NCBI RefSeq assembly: GCF_037860835.1
Contig: NZ_JBBEOG010000002.1
Coordinates: 434,001 to 498,000 of the forward strand
Source: Aquipuribacter nitratireducens
GTDB taxonomy: Bacteria; Actinomycetota; Actinomycetes; Actinomycetales; JBBAYJ01
Length of the DNA: 64,000 nucleotides
Reading direction: 5' to 3'
Shown here: positions 47,278 through 57,421 of the stretch, in pieces
How the letters are laid out: the number at the start of each line of letters is the position of its first letter
How positions within the stretch are numbered: position 1 is the first letter of the stretch
The notes under the pieces: generated by a model
What the model saw: only the letters and a program-made list of their open reading frames with translations
What the model was told of the DNA's origin: nothing
The model's database searches: none
Position numbers and translations under genes: made by a program

Positions 47278-47349
47278 GTGGCACAGCACGGTGACTCCCG
47301 GGGCCCCAGGGCCGTCGGGGTACTCGTACTCGGCAGGCGCGTCGCCTGA
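47278..47349 (+). CDS. Putative ilvB leader peptide
   Basis: This 23-codon reading frame encodes [20 protein letters not shown] followed by RVA. Its second half is crowded with branched-chain residues: four Val and two Leu within eleven codons. Two of the Val codons are GTA, rare in this GC-rich genome, placed as GTA CTC GTA CTC. It starts 7 bases after TACCGT and ends 133 bases before ilvB. Val/Leu/Ile-rich leader peptides control ilvBNC by attenuation in Corynebacterium and Streptomyces. No protein of its own function is expected. Confidence 0.6.
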
Positions 47350-47379
47350 CCGAGCTGCAGCCACGGCCCGAGCGACGCG

Positions 47380-47413
47380 CGACCCCTCAGCCCCGACCGG
47401 GGAGGAGGGGTCG
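47380..47413 (+). promoter_or_regulatory. ilvB leader hairpin A (putative attenuator)
   Basis: CGACCCCT (47380-47387) pairs with AGGGGTCG (47406-47413), and CCCC (47391-47394) pairs with GGGG (47399-47402) inside it. CCCCGAC at 47391-47397 can instead pair with GTCGGGG (47314-47320) in the leader peptide sequence, which would disrupt the hairpin when ribosomes clear or stall there. No T tract follows. Confidence 0.5.
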
Positions 47414-47455
47414 TCCCGCGTCCGGGCACCGGCCCGCGCGGGGTGGCGCGGGACG
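47412..47455 (+). promoter_or_regulatory. ilvB leader hairpin B
   Basis: CGTCCCGCG (47412-47420) pairs exactly with CGCGGGACG (47447-47455). It overlaps the last two bases of hairpin A and ends 27 bases before the ilvB ATG, so the two structures may compete and one may mask the ribosome-binding region. Confidence 0.45.
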
Positions 47456-47482
47456 GACGCGGACGGAGAGGACAGCACGACG

Positions 47483-50888
<3,406 letters not shown>

Positions 50889-50907
50889 CGCGCCCGGCGA
50901 CGACGTC

Positions 50908-50944
50908 CCGGTGGCACCCGCTCGGCAGGTGCGGGTGCCACCGG
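50908..50944 (+). terminator. 14-bp perfect hairpin after ilvC
   Basis: CCGGTGGCACCCGC (50908-50921) pairs exactly with GCGGGTGCCACCGG (50931-50944) around a 9-base loop. It begins 20 bases after the ilvC stop. No T tract follows, as usual here. It is the clearest terminator of the window. Confidence 0.75.
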
Positions 50945-50957
50945 CGGCGCGCCGGGT

Positions 50958-50963
50958 GATGAT
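50958..50963 (+). promoter_or_regulatory. -10-like hexamer before the DUF2256 gene
   Basis: GATGAT lies 6 bases before the GTG at 50970, directly after the ilvC hairpin. It fits the leaderless spacing used elsewhere, so the DUF2256/photolyase pair probably has its own promoter. Confidence 0.4.
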
Positions 50964-50969
50964 CGTCCG

Positions 50970-51407
50970 GTGAGCCGCCGGAGGGACCGCCCGGACGCCG
51001 ACCCGGGCCCGGAGCCGCTCGAGCGGACGTGCCGCGTGTGCGGGCGCCGCATGGAGCGCCGTGCCCGGTGGGGCGACCACTACGACGAGGTGCGCTACTG
51101 CTCATCGGGGTGCCGGCGCCGCGGGCTGCGCCCGGTCGACGAGCGGCTCGAGGACGCGCTCCTCGACCTGCTCGCCCGCCGCGCCCGTGACGCCAGCGTG
51201 TGCCCGAGCGAAGCCGCCCGGCTCGTCGCCGGGCACGGCACAGACCGCGACGAGGACGCGTGGCGCCCGCTCATGGAGCCCGCGCGCATGGCGGCGCGTC
51301 GCCTCGTCGCCCGCGGGCACGTCGAGATCACTCAGCACGGCCGGGTCGTGGACCCGAGCACCGCGAAGGGGCCCGTGCGGGTGCGGCTGCCGCGGACCGC
51401 GAGGTGA
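50970..51407 (+). CDS. DUF2256 and DUF3253 domain protein
   Basis: This 145-residue protein joins a small zinc-finger-like domain to a helical domain. The first part has CRVCGRRMERRARW and YCSSGC, a C-x2-C and C-x3-C pattern typical of DUF2256. The second part (LEDALLDLLARRARD to GHVEITQHGRVVDPSTAKGP) is DUF3253, which looks like a winged helix. Neither domain has an established function. DUF2256 genes are often found next to bacterial cryptochrome/photolyase genes, and here the photolyase-like gene overlaps it by GTGA. A role as partner or regulator of that enzyme is inferred. Confidence 0.78.
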   Translation: MSRRRDRPDADPGPEPLERTCRVCGRRMERRARWGDHYDEVRYCSSGCRRRGLRPVDERLEDALLDLLARRARDASVCPSEAARLVAGHGTDRDEDAWRPLMEPARMAARRLVARGHVEITQHGRVVDPSTAKGPVRVRLPRTAR

Positions 51408-52666
51408 GCACGCGGACGCAGCTGCCGACCCCGGGGCCGGACGTCGCCGCCGACCCCGACGCCGCCGTCGCGTGGGTCGGTGCGCACCTGGGTGACCTCG
51501 CCCTCGAGGGCGCCGAGGGCGCCGAGGGCCTGGTCGCGAGCCCGGCCTTCCGCGGCGGGCAGCCGGCGGCCGACGCCGCGCTCGCCGCGCTCGACGTCAC
51601 CGGCTACGCAGCGCGCCGCAACGAGGTGTGGCCCGAGCCCCGGCGCGGCGCGAGCCGCATGAGCCCGTACATCCGGCACGGGCTCGTCGACCTGCGCAGC
51701 GTGTGGGACCGCGTCGCCGACGCCCCGTCGCGGGACCGGCAGAAGTACCGCGACGAGCTGCTGTGGCAGGAGTACGCCCGGCACGTCCACGCCCGGACGG
51801 GACGGGGCATGCGGGCGCCCCTGCGGCACGAGCCGGCCGTGGGCTCCGGCTGGTCGGGGGAGCCGTGGCCGGCGGAGATGGCGTGCATGCGGCTCACCAC
51901 CGACGAGCTGCGTCGTGACGGGTGGCTCGTGAACCAGACCCGCATGTGGCTGGCCTCGCAGTGGACGGTCCGGGCCGGGTGGGACTGGCGGGAGGGGGAG
52001 GAGGAGTTCTTCCGGCACCTGCTCGACGGCTCCCGGGCGGCCAACCGGCTCGGGTGGCAGTGGACGGTGGGCGCGGGGACCGGGCGCCCGTACGGCTTCA
52101 GCCGGTGGCAGGTCGAGAAGCGCGCGCCCGGAGTGTGCGCGGGCTGCCCGCTCCGCGAGCGCTGCCCCGTCGACGGCTGGCCCGACACCACGGCGCCGCC
52201 GCGGCTGCTCCACCGCGCCCCCGGTCTCGGCCGCGGCGAGCCCGGCGCCGACCTCGCCGGGCCGTCCGACGTCGTCGCCACCTCTGCGCCGCGCGCGGTG
52301 TGGCTGACGTTCGAGTCGCTCGGCGACGCCGACCCCGCCCTCGACGCGCACCCCGAGCTGCCGGTGGTCGTCGTCTTCGACGAGCCGCTGCTCGCCCGGC
52401 TCCGGCTGTCCGCCAAGCGCCTGGTGTTCCTCGCCGAGACCGTCGCCTCCCTCGCCACCCGCCACGACGTCGAGGTCCACCGGGGCCGACCCGGGGAGGT
52501 CCTGCACGGCCGGGACGCGGCCGTCACCCACGCGCCCGTCCCCGGGTTCGGGCCGCGCGCGGTCCGCGCCTCCCCCGCGGAGGTGCACCCGTGGCCGTGG
52601 CTCGTGCGCCCCGGCGCGGGGTCCGTCCGGTCCTTCACCGCGTGGCGCAAGGGGGCCCGCGTCTGA
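51404..52666 (+). CDS. Photolyase/cryptochrome-like FAD protein with inverted domain order
   Basis: This 420-residue protein has the helical FAD-binding domain of photolyases first, at about residues 40-265 (PEPRRGASRMSPYIRHGLVD, YRDELLWQEYARHV, GWLVNQTRMWLASQW, DGSRAANRLGWQWT). An alpha/beta domain resembling the photolyase antenna domain follows at about 300-395 (AVWLTFESLGDADPALD, VVVVFDEPLL, SAKRLVFLAETVASLA). In normal photolyases the order is reversed. Four cysteines, C161, C245, C248 and C254, have spacing close to the [4Fe-4S] ligands of FeS-type bacterial photolyases (C350, C438, C441, C454 in PhrB). It may repair (6-4) lesions or act as a light sensor. It starts by GTGA overlap with the DUF2256 gene. 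Confidence 0.82.
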   Translation: MSTRTQLPTPGPDVAADPDAAVAWVGAHLGDLALEGAEGAEGLVASPAFRGGQPAADAALAALDVTGYAARRNEVWPEPRRGASRMSPYIRHGLVDLRSVWDRVADAPSRDRQKYRDELLWQEYARHVHARTGRGMRAPLRHEPAVGSGWSGEPWPAEMACMRLTTDELRRDGWLVNQTRMWLASQWTVRAGWDWREGEEEFFRHLLDGSRAANRLGWQWTVGAGTGRPYGFSRWQVEKRAPGVCAGCPLRERCPVDGWPDTTAPPRLLHRAPGLGRGEPGADLAGPSDVVATSAPRAVWLTFESLGDADPALDAHPELPVVVVFDEPLLARLRLSAKRLVFLAETVASLATRHDVEVHRGRPGEVLHGRDAAVTHAPVPGFGPRAVRASPAEVHPWPWLVRPGAGSVRSFTAWRKGARV

Positions 52667-52676
52667 GCCGAGGGGG

Positions 52677-53459
52677 TCAGTCCCCGCCGCCGTCGCCCCC
52701 GCCGCCGTCACCGCCGTCGCCGGAGCCCGCCCCCGCGGAGGCGTCACCGTCGACCGCGGTCCCGATCGCGCGGAGGTCGAGCGCGTCGGAGTCGTCCGCG
52801 ACAACGAGCACCACCCCGCCGTGGTCGTCCCGGCGGTTCTCGAGCTCGGCACGCAGCGCCCGGGCCGAGCGCGAGCGGGCGAGGAGGAGGAGGGCGCCCG
52901 CACGCGCGAGCGTCTCGTCGGTGAGGTCGTCGCCGGTCGCGAGCGCCGCCAGCCGTCGCCGCCCCTCCGCCGCCCGTCGAGCACCGGAGCCCGTGAGCCG
53001 CACCTCGTGCTGGGTGCCGTACCAGCGGCTGCGCGTGGTCGTCGTGACGAGCCCTGCGCGCTCGAGCTCCTCCACCGCCGCCGCGCGGACGCGGGTGGTC
53101 AGCCCGGTGTCCTCCGTCCGCAGCCGGAACAGCAGGTCCCGCAGCCGCACGCCGGCCGGGTCGTCCGCGCCGAGGAGCCGGGCCCGGGCGGCGTCGTGGA
53201 GCACGACGAGCGGGGGGAGCGGCGGGCACGCGACGTCGCCTGCTGCGACGAGCGGCGTCGCGCTCTCCCCGATCAGGCGGCGCCGACGTCGCACCGTGAC
53301 GCTCCACACGCGGCGCAGGACGAGCTCGCGGGCGGTCAGCGAGCTCGACGACAGCCCGACCGTGCGGCCGTCCGCGAGGAGGATCTCGCCGGCCGCGGCG
53401 GACAGCGGCCACGCGACCGGCTCGTCCTCGGGGACGGGGGACGGCGCGCTCGGGCCCAC
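52677..53459 (-). CDS. Hypothetical protein with Asp/Gly-rich tail
   Basis: I do not recognise the family. The 260-residue product has a middle region ([38 protein letters not shown]) that looks like a winged helix. A helical stretch follows ([20 protein letters not shown]), and the tail consists of Gly and Asp. There is no signal peptide or membrane helix. The GTG at 53459 has TAGGGT 7 bases upstream (53472-53467), giving a leaderless start. It is divergent from leuB across 77 bases and converges with the photolyase-like gene across 10. Confidence 0.55.
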
Positions 53460-53523
53460 GGCGGGAACCCTACGGCGTCCACCAGCACTCGGACGGCCGG
53501 GCCGGGGCGGCCGGTGCGCGTCG

Positions 53524-53529
53524 TAGCCT
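53524..53529 (+). promoter_or_regulatory. -10-like hexamer, leaderless start of leuB
   Basis: TAGCCT lies 7 bases before the GTG at 53537. The divergent gap also contains TAGGGT (53472-53467) for the hypothetical gene on the other strand. Confidence 0.5.
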
Positions 53530-53536
53530 GCGGAGC

Positions 53537-54619
53537 GTGACCGCGACGACGCCCGCCGCCGCCCCCCGCACGCTCGACCTCGCCGTCATCGGTGGCGACG
53601 GCATCGGTCCGGAGGTGGTGGGCGCCGGTCTCGACGTGCTCCGCGCCGCCGTCGCCGCGGACGGTGTCGACGTCCGCACCACGGACTACGACCTCGGGGC
53701 GGCGCGCTGGCACCGGACGGGGGAGACCCTCACCGACGCCGACCTCGACGCCGTCCGGCAGCACGAGGCGATCCTCCTCGGCGCCGTCGGCGACCCCGGA
53801 GTGCCGAGCGGGGTGCTCGAGCGCGGCCTCCTCCTGCGGCTCCGCTTCGCCCTCGACCACTACGTCAACCTCCGCCCGTCGGTCCTCCTGCCCGGCGCCA
53901 CCAGCCCCCTCGCGCCGCACGTCCTCGACAAGGGGCCCGTCGACTTCGTCGTGGTCCGTGAGGGCACCGAGGGGCCGTACGTCGGCAACGGCGGGGCGCT
54001 GCGCGTCGGGACGCCCGCGGAGATCGCGACGGAGGTGAGCGTCAACACCGCCTTCGGCGTCGAGCGCGTCGTGCGCGACGCCTTCGCCCGCGCCGCGGCC
54101 CGCCCGCGGCGGCGCCTCACCCTCGTCCACAAGCACAACGTCCTCGTCCACGCCGGACACCTGTGGCGACGTACCGTCGAGGCCGTCAACGCCGAGTTCC
54201 CGGACGTCAGCGTCGACTACCTCCACGTCGACGCGGCGACGATCTTCCTCACGACCGACCCGCAGCGCTTCGACGTCGTCGTCACCGACAACCTGTTCGG
54301 TGACATCCTCACCGACCTCGCCGCCGCCGTCACCGGCGGCATCGGGCTGGCCGCCAGCGGCAACGTCAACCCCGACCGCTCCTCGCCCAGCATGTTCGAG
54401 CCGGTCCACGGCTCGGCCCCCGACATCGCGGCTCAGGGGGTCGCCGACCCGACCGCGACGTTCCTGTCCGTCGCGCTGCTCCTCGAGCACGTCGGGCTCG
54501 GAGAGGCCGCCGCGCGCGTGCAGGAGGCGGTCGTCGGCGCCCTCGCCGACCGCGACCCCTCGGCGCCGCGCCCGGGCACGGCCGAGGTCACCGACGCGGT
54601 CCGCGCCCGGCTCGCGTGA
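53537..54619 (+). CDS. leuB: 3-isopropylmalate dehydrogenase
   Basis: LeuB oxidatively decarboxylates 3-isopropylmalate in leucine synthesis, using NAD+. The 360-residue protein has [16 protein letters not shown] at the start, the substrate Arg region [21 protein letters not shown], and a metal-binding Asp in [17 protein letters not shown]. The NAD loop is [20 protein letters not shown]. It may also act on citramalate-derived 2-methylmalate in the isoleucine branch, since cimA is two genes downstream. Upstream leuA and leuCD are not in the window. Confidence 0.95.
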
Positions 54620-54629
54620 GGGCCGCGGC

Positions 54630-54635
54630 TAGGCT
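54630..54635 (+). promoter_or_regulatory. -10-like hexamer upstream of ilvE
   Basis: TAGGCT lies 49 bases before the ilvE ATG. Unlike most units here, this one would have a leader of about 40 bases, containing a GC hairpin (CCGCGC/GCGCGG within 54645-54663) and GGGAGG before the ATG. Confidence 0.4.
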
Positions 54636-54683
54636 GACCCGGACCGCGCGCCGGGGCGCGGCCGGACCGCTGGGAGGCGCACG

Positions 54684-55811
54684 ATGACGCAGACGGACAC
54701 CGACACGTCGCAGGACGCCGCGGGCACCTCGCCGCTCGCCTTCACGGTCGACCCGGACGTCGCGCGGCGCACCGACGAGGAGCGCGCGCAGATCCTCGGT
54801 GCCCCCGGGTTCGGGAAGCACTTCACCGACCACATGGTGACGGCGACGTGGACCCTCGATCGGGGCTGGCACGACGCCGGCGTGCGCGCCTTCGGCCCCA
54901 TCACCCTGTCGCCCGCCGCCGCGGTCCTCCACTACGCGCAGGAGGTGTTCGAGGGTCTCAAGGCCTACCGCCACGACGACGGCTCGGTGTGGTCGTTCCG
55001 GCCCGAGGCCAACGCCGCGCGGTTCGCCCGCTCGGCCCGTCGCCTCGCGCTGCCGCAGCTGCCGGAGGCCGACTTCCTCGGCTCGCTCGAGGCGCTCGTG
55101 CGCGCCGACGTCGACTGGGTGCCGAGCGGGGGCGAGGCGAGCCTCTACCTGCGCCCGTTCATGTTCGCCTCCGAGGAGTTCCTCGGGGTGCGCCCGGCGC
55201 ACACCGTCACGTACTGCCTCATCGCCTCGCCCGCGGGCTCGTACTTCCCGGGCGGTGTCCGCCCGGTCAGCATCTGGCTCACGACCGACTACACCCGGGC
55301 CGCCCCCGGCGGCACGGGTGAGGCGAAGTGCGGCGGCAACTACGCCGCGAGCCTCGCCGCCCAGCAGGAGGCCATCGGGCACGGCTGCGACCAGGTCTGC
55401 TTCGTGGACGCGACGGAGCACCGCTGGGTCGAGGAGCTCGGTGGCATGAACCTCTACTTCGTCCACGCCGACGGCCGGCTCGTCACGCCGTCGCTCACCG
55501 GGACCATCCTCGAGGGCGTCACCCGCTCGTCGATCCTCACCCTCGCGAAGGAGCTCGGGCACGAGGTCGAGGAGCGGAAGGTCTCCGTCGAGGAGTGGCG
55601 CGACGGCGTCGCCTCCGGCGACATCACCGAGGTCTTAGCGTGCGGCACCGCGGCGGTCGTCACCCCGCTCGGGCGGCTCGCGTGGGACGGCGGCGAGGTC
55701 GTCATGGGCGAGGAGCCGGGGGAGACGACGATGCGGATCCGCTCGCGGCTCCTCGACATCCAGTACGGCCGCGAGGCCGACGAGCACGGTTGGCTGCGGC
55801 GCCTGGCATGA
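54684..55811 (+). CDS. ilvE: Branched-chain amino acid aminotransferase
   Basis: IlvE transfers the amino group to the 2-oxo acids of Val, Leu and Ile. The 375-residue fold-type IV PLP enzyme has VLHYAQEVFEGLKAYRHDDG, and the family signature EAKCGGNYAASLAAQ contains the PLP lysine. LACGTAAVVTPLGRL lies near the C-terminus. It is separated from leuB by a small leader region and overlaps cimA by ATGA. The length is that of eukaryote-like actinobacterial IlvE proteins. Confidence 0.95.
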   Translation: MTQTDTDTSQDAAGTSPLAFTVDPDVARRTDEERAQILGAPGFGKHFTDHMVTATWTLDRGWHDAGVRAFGPITLSPAAAVLHYAQEVFEGLKAYRHDDGSVWSFRPEANAARFARSARRLALPQLPEADFLGSLEALVRADVDWVPSGGEASLYLRPFMFASEEFLGVRPAHTVTYCLIASPAGSYFPGGVRPVSIWLTTDYTRAAPGGTGEAKCGGNYAASLAAQQEAIGHGCDQVCFVDATEHRWVEELGGMNLYFVHADGRLVTPSLTGTILEGVTRSSILTLAKELGHEVEERKVSVEEWRDGVASGDITEVLACGTAAVVTPLGRLAWDGGEVVMGEEPGETTMRIRSRLLDIQYGREADEHGWLRRLA

Positions 55812-57421
55812 GCGAGCGCGCGGCGATCGAGGTCTACGACACGACCCTGCGCGACGGCGCCCAGCAGGAGGGACTGTCGCTGTCGGTCGCCGACAAGCTC
55901 GCGATCGCGCGTCACCTGGACGACCTCGGCGTGGGCGTCATCGAGGGCGGGTGGCCCGGCGCGATCCCGAAGGACACCGAGTTCTTCGCGCGCGCCGCCG
56001 ACGAGCTGCAGCTGCGCCACGCCCGCCTCGCCGCGTTCGGCGCGACCCGCCGGGCGGGCGGGCGCGCCGACACCGACGCGCAGGTCAGGGCGCTGCTCGA
56101 CGCCCGCGCGCCCGTCGTCACCCTCGTGGCGAAGAGCCACACCGGCCACGTCGAGCGCGCCCTGCGCACCACTCCCGCGGAGAACCTCGAGATGGTCCGC
56201 GACAGCGTCGCCTTCCTCGTCGCCGAGGGCCGCGAGGTCGTGCTCGACGCCGAGCACTTCTTCGACGGCTTCCTCCTCGACCGCGCCTACGCGCTCGAGG
56301 TCCTCCGGGTCGCCATGACCGCGGGTGCGAGCACCGTCGCCCTGTGCGACACCAACGGAGGGCACCTGCCGGACGTCGTCGCCGACGTCGTGGCGGAGGT
56401 CCGTGCCGCGGTCGGGGCGCCGATGGGCATCCACTGCCACAACGACACCGGCTGCGCGGTCGCGAACACCCTCGCGGCCGTCGACGCCGGTGCCGTGCAG
56501 GTCCAGGGCACGCTCAACGGCTACGGCGAGCGCACCGGCAACGCCGACCTCGTGACGGTCGTGGCGAACCTCGAGCTCAAGCGGTCGACGCCCGTGCTGC
56601 GCCCGGGCGGTCTCGCGGAGGCGAGCCGGATCGCGCACGCCGTCAGCGAGATCACGAACGTGCCGCCGTACTCGCGCCAGCCGTACGTGGGCGCGAGCGC
56701 CTTCACCCACAAGGCCGGCCTGCACGCCAGCGCCATCCGCGTCGACCCCGACCTCTACCAGCACACCGACCCGCGCACGGTCGGCAACGACATGCGGATG
56801 CTCGTGTCGGAGATGGCGGGCCGGGCGAGCATCGAGCTCAAGGGCCGGGAGCTCGGCCTCGACCTGTCCGACCCCGTCCTGCTGTCCGCGGTGACGGAGG
56901 CGGTGAAGTCGAAGGAGGCCGAGGGGTACACGTTCGAGGCCGCCGACGCCTCCTTCGACCTCCTCGTCCGGCGCGTCGCCGCGGAGCGCGGCCTCGGTGA
57001 GGGTGTCCCGGACTACTTCCACGTCGACTCCTGGCGCGTCATCACCGAGATGCGACCCGGCGACGCGCACGGCGCCGCGCTGTCGGAGGCGACCGTCCGG
57101 CTGGTCCTCCAGGGGGAGCGGTGCGTGGCCTCCGGCGAGGGCAACGGGCCCGTCAACGCGCTCGACGCCGCGCTGCGCACCGCGCTCGACCCCAGCTACC
57201 CCGAGCTCGCGCACCTCGACCTCGTCGACTTCCGGGTGCGGATCCTCGACGCCGCCCACGGCACCGACGCCGTCACCCGCGTGCTGCTGGAGACCGCCGA
57301 CCAGGAGTCCTCGTGGACCACGGTGGGGGTCGGTCCCAACGTCGTGGAGGCGTCGTGGGAGGCCCTCGTCGACGGCCTGGCGCACGGGCTGCTCCGCCGG
57401 GGCGTCCCCTCCCGCGCGTGA
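55808..57421 (+). CDS. cimA: (R)-citramalate synthase
   Basis: CimA condenses pyruvate and acetyl-CoA to citramalate, giving 2-oxobutyrate for isoleucine without threonine deaminase. The 537-residue DRE-TIM enzyme has VYDTTLRDGAQQEGLSLSV, the metal ligands in GIHCHNDTGCAVANTLAAVDAG, and a C-terminal regulatory LeuA-type domain (about 400-530). The pattern IEGGWPGAIPKD is typical of CimA rather than LeuA. It overlaps ilvE by ATGA and the next gene by GTGA. Homocitrate synthase is a less likely alternative. Confidence 0.93.
   Translation: MSERAAIEVYDTTLRDGAQQEGLSLSVADKLAIARHLDDLGVGVIEGGWPGAIPKDTEFFARAADELQLRHARLAAFGATRRAGGRADTDAQVRALLDARAPVVTLVAKSHTGHVERALRTTPAENLEMVRDSVAFLVAEGREVVLDAEHFFDGFLLDRAYALEVLRVAMTAGASTVALCDTNGGHLPDVVADVVAEVRAAVGAPMGIHCHNDTGCAVANTLAAVDAGAVQVQGTLNGYGERTGNADLVTVVANLELKRSTPVLRPGGLAEASRIAHAVSEITNVPPYSRQPYVGASAFTHKAGLHASAIRVDPDLYQHTDPRTVGNDMRMLVSEMAGRASIELKGRELGLDLSDPVLLSAVTEAVKSKEAEGYTFEAADASFDLLVRRVAAERGLGEGVPDYFHVDSWRVITEMRPGDAHGAALSEATVRLVLQGERCVASGEGNGPVNALDAALRTALDPSYPELAHLDLVDFRVRILDAAHGTDAVTRVLLETADQESSWTTVGVGPNVVEASWEALVDGLAHGLLRRGVPSRA

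Follow-up and report, generated by a model that had tools for sequence, protein, structure and literature searches.

A domain-reversed photolyase gene with a probable iron-sulfur site in Aquipuribacter nitratireducens

The photolyase gene, its relatives and its neighbours

The window, a stretch of 64,000 nucleotides from Aquipuribacter nitratireducens, contains on its forward strand an ORF (51404-52666) that encodes a protein of 420 aa, whose translation carries the motifs quoted in an earlier note on this DNA. The gene directly follows a smaller one on the same strand, and the features of the two are listed below with the evidence for each.

50970..51407, + strand: upstream gene (145 aa) with DUF2256 zinc-ribbon-like and DUF3253 domains (Pfam PF11625, PF10013)
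51404..52666, + strand: photolyase gene of reverse domain order (420 aa, GTG start; SPL / Phr6-like) (translation, homologues, AlphaFold2)
51536..52183, + strand: FAD-binding catalytic domain, residues ~45-260 (PF03441, hhalign, PDB 1iqr/1tez)
51884..51886, + strand: C161 codon, the first of four predicted Fe-S ligands (Cys in 112/112 sequences; FeS-BCP column match 10/10)
52136..52165, + strand: stretch with the codons for the three further predicted Fe-S ligands, C245, C248 and C254, arranged as C-x2-C-x5-C (112/112; FeS-BCP columns)
52259..52603, + strand: C-terminal antenna-type (DNA_photolyase-like) alpha/beta domain, residues ~286-400 (hhalign, shuffles, Foldseek match to 2j07)

Pfam places FAD_binding_7 (PF03441) on residues 160-226 of the photolyase (E=1.2e-10), and the FAD half aligns by hhalign with residues 192-385 of class I photolyases (E 7e-26), which are also the nearest solved proteins in the PDB comparison. 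By these positions the FAD domain stands at the N-terminus, with no alpha/beta domain ahead of it, as the earlier note had read from the motifs. The full-length AlphaFold2 model, built on an alignment of 72 family sequences, has a pLDDT of 94.2 and a pTM of 0.93, the latter implying a fixed arrangement of the two domains in the predicted structure. With Foldseek, the stretch aligned for the whole model comprised 213 columns, approximately the length of one domain, because Foldseek alignment is sequential.

A scan of genome contigs returned 328 stretches encoding relatives, of which 80, matching over nearly the whole length, were kept. The 71 full-length homologues are 56-66% identical, and the 72-sequence alignment displays invariant columns across both halves, including the four cysteines. 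A full-length member was found in 26 of the 397 sampled genomes of the phylum (host counted) and, for one related family, in 21 of 251 genomes, plus one member in two pieces; none of the sampled family members was seen to lack the C-terminal domain. The family further includes members from MAGs of Myxococcota and Binatota.

The product of the upstream gene matches PF11625 (E 1.7e-28) and PF10013 (E 1.7e-9). Its stop codon overlaps the GTG start of the photolyase gene by 4 bp, and the two genes are likely co-translated. A DUF2256-DUF3253 gene is present on the same strand at a distance of at most 112 bp, upstream or downstream, in 17 of the 111 family loci (host included; a few of the 17 are near-duplicates), and its product is a possible functional partner of the photolyase. 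Five of 106 loci (L030, L059, L101, L105 and L027) have a FeS-BCP gene adjoining or near the family gene, and such loci possibly represent photorepair clusters. Two of them, L030 and L059, carry the DUF2256-DUF3253 gene in addition to the FeS-BCP (6-4) photolyase gene.

In the window, the photolyase gene is located within a branched-chain amino-acid cluster (47291-57421: ilvB, ilvN, ilvC ... leuB, ilvE and a citramalate/isopropylmalate synthase-like gene, names given from reading the translations), an odd site for a repair gene. A convergent ORF of 260 aa (52677-53459, minus strand) follows, and had no significant Pfam or NCBIfam match.

The C-terminal antenna-type domain

The earlier note had proposed searching the two halves separately against photolyase families in Pfam. 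The FAD half matches PF03441; the C-terminal half alone matched nothing in Pfam or NCBIfam as a single sequence, which, read to the letter, is an outcome that the note had named as a refutation. Profile comparison was needed to assess its homology and changed this picture. A profile of family residues 285-420 (81 sequences) was compared by hhalign with 29 canonical actinobacterial photolyases and aligned with class I residues 4-137 (Prob 94.8, E 5e-8). Its score was 57.7; 199 shuffles of the columns gave no more than 30.6, the profile in reverse 14.8, and three unrelated proteins from the window between 16 and 20. Against the FeS-BCP profile the same domain reached only E 0.09, so that it resembles the antenna domain of class I and not the DPRP domain of FeS-BCPs. 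When the full-length family profile was aligned to class I, both domain alignments were recovered in swapped order, which bears out the reversed order proposed in the earlier note. The protein may also be a circular permutant in the strict sense, with the two domains packed as in a canonical photolyase, as the note had inferred.

The C-terminal part of the model also matches in five further genomes, beside the FAD match of a canonical photolyase (G130, 4e-7; G173, 3e-6; G248, 6e-6; G152, 5e-5; and G262, 2e-4, the weakest, which contains one stop codon), and on the N-terminal side wherever it was placed. Relatives from Deinococcus, equally FAD-first, match PF00875 at E 3e-5, slightly under the curated cut-off, and class I at E 2e-11. 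Folded in isolation, the domain gave a pLDDT of 90, with the Thermus photolyase carrying 8-HDF (2j07) as its top PDB match (prob 1.00, TMq 0.62), at a Foldseek E of only 1.5e-3.

An unrelated Rossmann-type domain, of the universal stress protein or methyltransferase kind and merely resembling an antenna domain, would agree with the lack of a Pfam match for this half and with the presence of both protein types among the Foldseek matches, none of them below E 1e-3. This reading is already disfavoured by a profile match to the antenna domain well over shuffles and unrelated proteins, by the Deinococcus homologues, which provide a link to PF00875, and by a photolyase being the best structural match; we regard it as very improbable. 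On the profile evidence, the C-terminal half is homologous to the antenna domain that class I photolyases carry at their N-terminus, and the earlier reading of an antenna-like domain placed last is upheld. The actinobacterial domain falls short of the canonical length and may therefore have lost its chromophore. The host encodes an FO synthase, which makes the antenna pigment 8-HDF, and thus has this pigment available.

Among the listed plasmid records, FAD-first relatives are found on Deinococcus and alphaproteobacterial plasmids. On a plasmid of Deinococcus sp. QL22 (L171:2408-3699), two ORFs overlapping by 4 bp encode the FAD/Fe-S part and, separately, the antenna part; the second matches the antenna domains of class I at E 1e-10. 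This may be a frameshifted pseudogene, but the second ORF has its own ATG and both frames look intact. The alphaproteobacterial plasmids (L116, L117, L168-L170) encode FAD-first photolyases without the Fe-S cysteines, some of them adjoining UbiB-kinase or DUF3429 genes. Their C-terminal domain had no significant profile match to that of the family, and these proteins, which probably belong to the NewPHL group, were dropped as proof of a C-terminal antenna.

Probable Fe-S site, repair pocket and activity

Cysteines C161, C245, C248 and C254 are identical in all 112 family sequences and coincide with the four cluster-cysteine columns of FeS-BCPs (10/10 for C161), which class I enzymes lack. The FeS-type ligand spacing suggested in the earlier note thus holds for positions and columns but is approximate in the last gap, which is x5 here (C-x2-C-x5-C) and about x12 in the FeS-BCP sequence shown in the hhalign alignment. 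The cyanobacterial RS9916 Phr4 is closer, its C169, C254, C257 and C263 being spaced 85/3/6 against 84/3/6 here (PMC9426592). Because the cysteines are invariant, lie on the FeS-BCP columns and share their last gap with Phr4, they likely hold an Fe-S cluster, and the possibility of an iron-sulfur enzyme raised earlier has become a probable Fe-S site.

The putative repair pocket is equally conserved: E118, W121, N177, W195, N214, W218 and W220 are identical in 112 of 112 members, and M181 in 104. These residues stand where class I enzymes have their CPD, flavin and electron-transfer residues, and match those of class I CPD photolyases. Six of them (E118, W121, N177, M181, N214 and W220) align with class I CPD-binding and FAD residues that we take to be E274, W277, N341, M345, N378 and W384 in E. 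coli numbering. In the alignment, FeS-BCPs have His in the N177 column (10/10), Pro in place of W195 and Met in place of W218. The family profile aligned with class I at E 7e-26 versus 1.6e-9 with FeS-BCPs, and among PDB matches 1tez (E 2e-23) stands against 4dja (E 7e-4).

In the FAD-domain tree the family falls outside the FeS-BCPs, which form a separate, starred clade, and groups with class I, DASH and other reverse-order proteins. The unconstrained tree separates the reverse-order forms, but a single clade of them is not rejected (p-AU 0.276), so that they may have arisen by one rearrangement or by several. By sequence, the whole protein resembles class I CPD photolyases more closely than FeS-BCPs. 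A PF04244 (DPRP) match was absent from the Pfam search of the protein, and the FeS-BCP affinity proposed earlier survives only in the corresponding cysteines, given the closer class I similarity, the separate clade, the missing DPRP match and Asn177. With the class I CPD pocket kept, FeS-BCP residues that differ and a tree position outside the FeS-BCPs, CPD is most likely, and a better guess for the substrate than a (6-4) photoproduct.

A (6-4) photolyase, with Fe-S cysteines marking (6-4) repair as proposed for Phr4, Phr5 and Phr6 (PMC9426592), is an alternative. The cysteines do align with those of FeS-BCP (6-4) enzymes, and a Synechococcus phr4 mutant showed greater sensitivity to UV-C than to UV-B (PMC9426592). 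Against this, the N177 column holds Asn in 112 of 112 members and His in all FeS-BCPs, every class I CPD pocket residue is kept, and SPL activity is reported as CPD repair (PMC9649867). The host, moreover, already has a separate FeS-BCP gene, besides a class I photolyase, and we consider (6-4) repair by this protein unlikely. Still to be weighed is a light sensor of the cryptochrome kind that repairs nothing, a role that would suit the unusual partner gene upstream and recalls actinobacterial homologues such as cpf2 and cryB, which have been discussed as light sensors (PMC8591293). Strictly invariant repair-pocket residues, a protein devoid of a signalling domain and the presence of another repair photolyase among the neighbours at five loci make it distinctly improbable, and we found no evidence for the new light-sensing role that the earlier note had envisaged.

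We therefore favour, with good though not full confidence, a flavin-dependent DNA photolyase of inverted topology, belonging to the Fe-S branch of the SPL (short photolyase-like) class, equivalent to cyanobacterial Phr6 or Phr4+Phr5, and most likely acting on CPD; it is most likely an SPL-class CPD photolyase that is domain-reversed instead of short. In such an enzyme, the N-terminal helical domain would bind FAD together with a UV-damaged pyrimidine dimer, most likely a CPD, and light-excited FADH- would give an electron to split the dimer. By analogy with NewPHLs the substrate may perhaps lie within single-stranded DNA. An Fe-S cluster on the four cysteines of the N-terminal domain would lend stability to the fold and to the face that binds DNA. 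Behind the catalytic domain, the antenna-type Rossmann domain may carry an antenna chromophore, or its role might be purely structural or one of DNA binding. One observation does not fit this explanation: in E. coli expressing phr4/5, UV-C protection was equal in light and dark (PMC9426592), which, if the analogy holds, is unlike simple photorepair.

Comparison with known photolyases

Since cyanobacterial proteins with the reverse-order layout are already in the literature (PMC9426592), the gene is a well-supported new relative and not a new kind of protein. What is new here is a full-length actinobacterial clade in which the C-terminal domain is always kept, antenna-domain homology proven by profiles, the residue evidence of a CPD-type pocket for CPD over (6-4) repair, and the recurrent DUF2256-DUF3253 neighbour, which may offer a functional context for two uncharacterised domains. 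Stable families exist with either domain order, so that a photolyase does not depend on which of the two, catalytic or antenna domain, comes first.

Class I CPD photolyases (1tez, 1owl, 1iqr, 2j07) are the nearest solved relatives for both domains and have the CPD pocket residues in common with this protein, which is their opposite in having the antenna domain last and Fe-S cysteines at columns where they have none. The FeS-BCPs PhrB (4dja) and CryB (3zxs) resemble it in the four cysteines of corresponding columns and differ in their leading DPRP domain, the His in the N177 column and their separate clade.

The SPL class of Xu et al. 2021 (doi 10.1093/molbev/msab191) is described as having CPD activity and an Fe-S cluster and as being without the N-terminal domain (PMC9649867; the class is also covered in PMC9178010 and PMC9498864). 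As far as these descriptions go, the present protein is like SPLs in its similarity to class I/III CPD photolyases, its probable Fe-S site and its want of an N-terminal alpha/beta domain, and differs in having an antenna-type domain at the C-terminus. The SPL that Xu et al. tested reportedly came from Rhodococcus fascians; if that protein shares this C-terminal domain, there is less force in the argument that a missing domain marks SPLs as primitive. We advance, tentatively and as somewhat less than an even prospect, that SPLs, proposed as an antenna-less ancestor of all photolyases, are neither short nor ancestral, at least their actinobacterial and deinococcal members being domain-reversed and forming with the DUF2256-DUF3253 partner a two-protein photorepair module, sometimes beside a (6-4) FeS-BCP gene. 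NewPHLs (Emmerich et al. 2020, as cited in PMC13274461) have been equated with SPLs and their inverted topology noted (PMC13274461). NewPHL and Phr7 with its Z-domain likewise place the FAD domain first, whereas the alphaproteobacterial relatives, which probably belong to this group, have, unlike the family described here, no Fe-S cysteines and a C-terminal domain without a significant match.

The closest published counterparts are the reverse-order Fe-S photolyases Phr4/Phr5 and Phr6, described in 2022 in Synechococcus and Cyanobium, of which Phr4/Phr5 were UV-protective in Synechococcus and E. coli and were predicted from their cysteines to have (6-4) activity (PMC9426592). We infer orthology with these proteins and with the named SPLs from the domain architecture and the spacing of the cysteines. 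Phr6 and the split Phr4/Phr5 of Cyanobium and marine Synechococcus, by their published description, also have the FAD domain first, the photolyase domain last and four Fe-S cysteines, and the two-gene form of Phr4/Phr5 recurs in the Deinococcus QL22 relative. They are cyanobacterial and proposed to be (6-4) enzymes, whereas the protein described here is actinobacterial with a pocket favouring CPD, and such a pocket next to a probable Fe-S site is relevant to the published suggestion that (6-4) activity is what Fe-S cysteines indicate in photolyases of reverse order.
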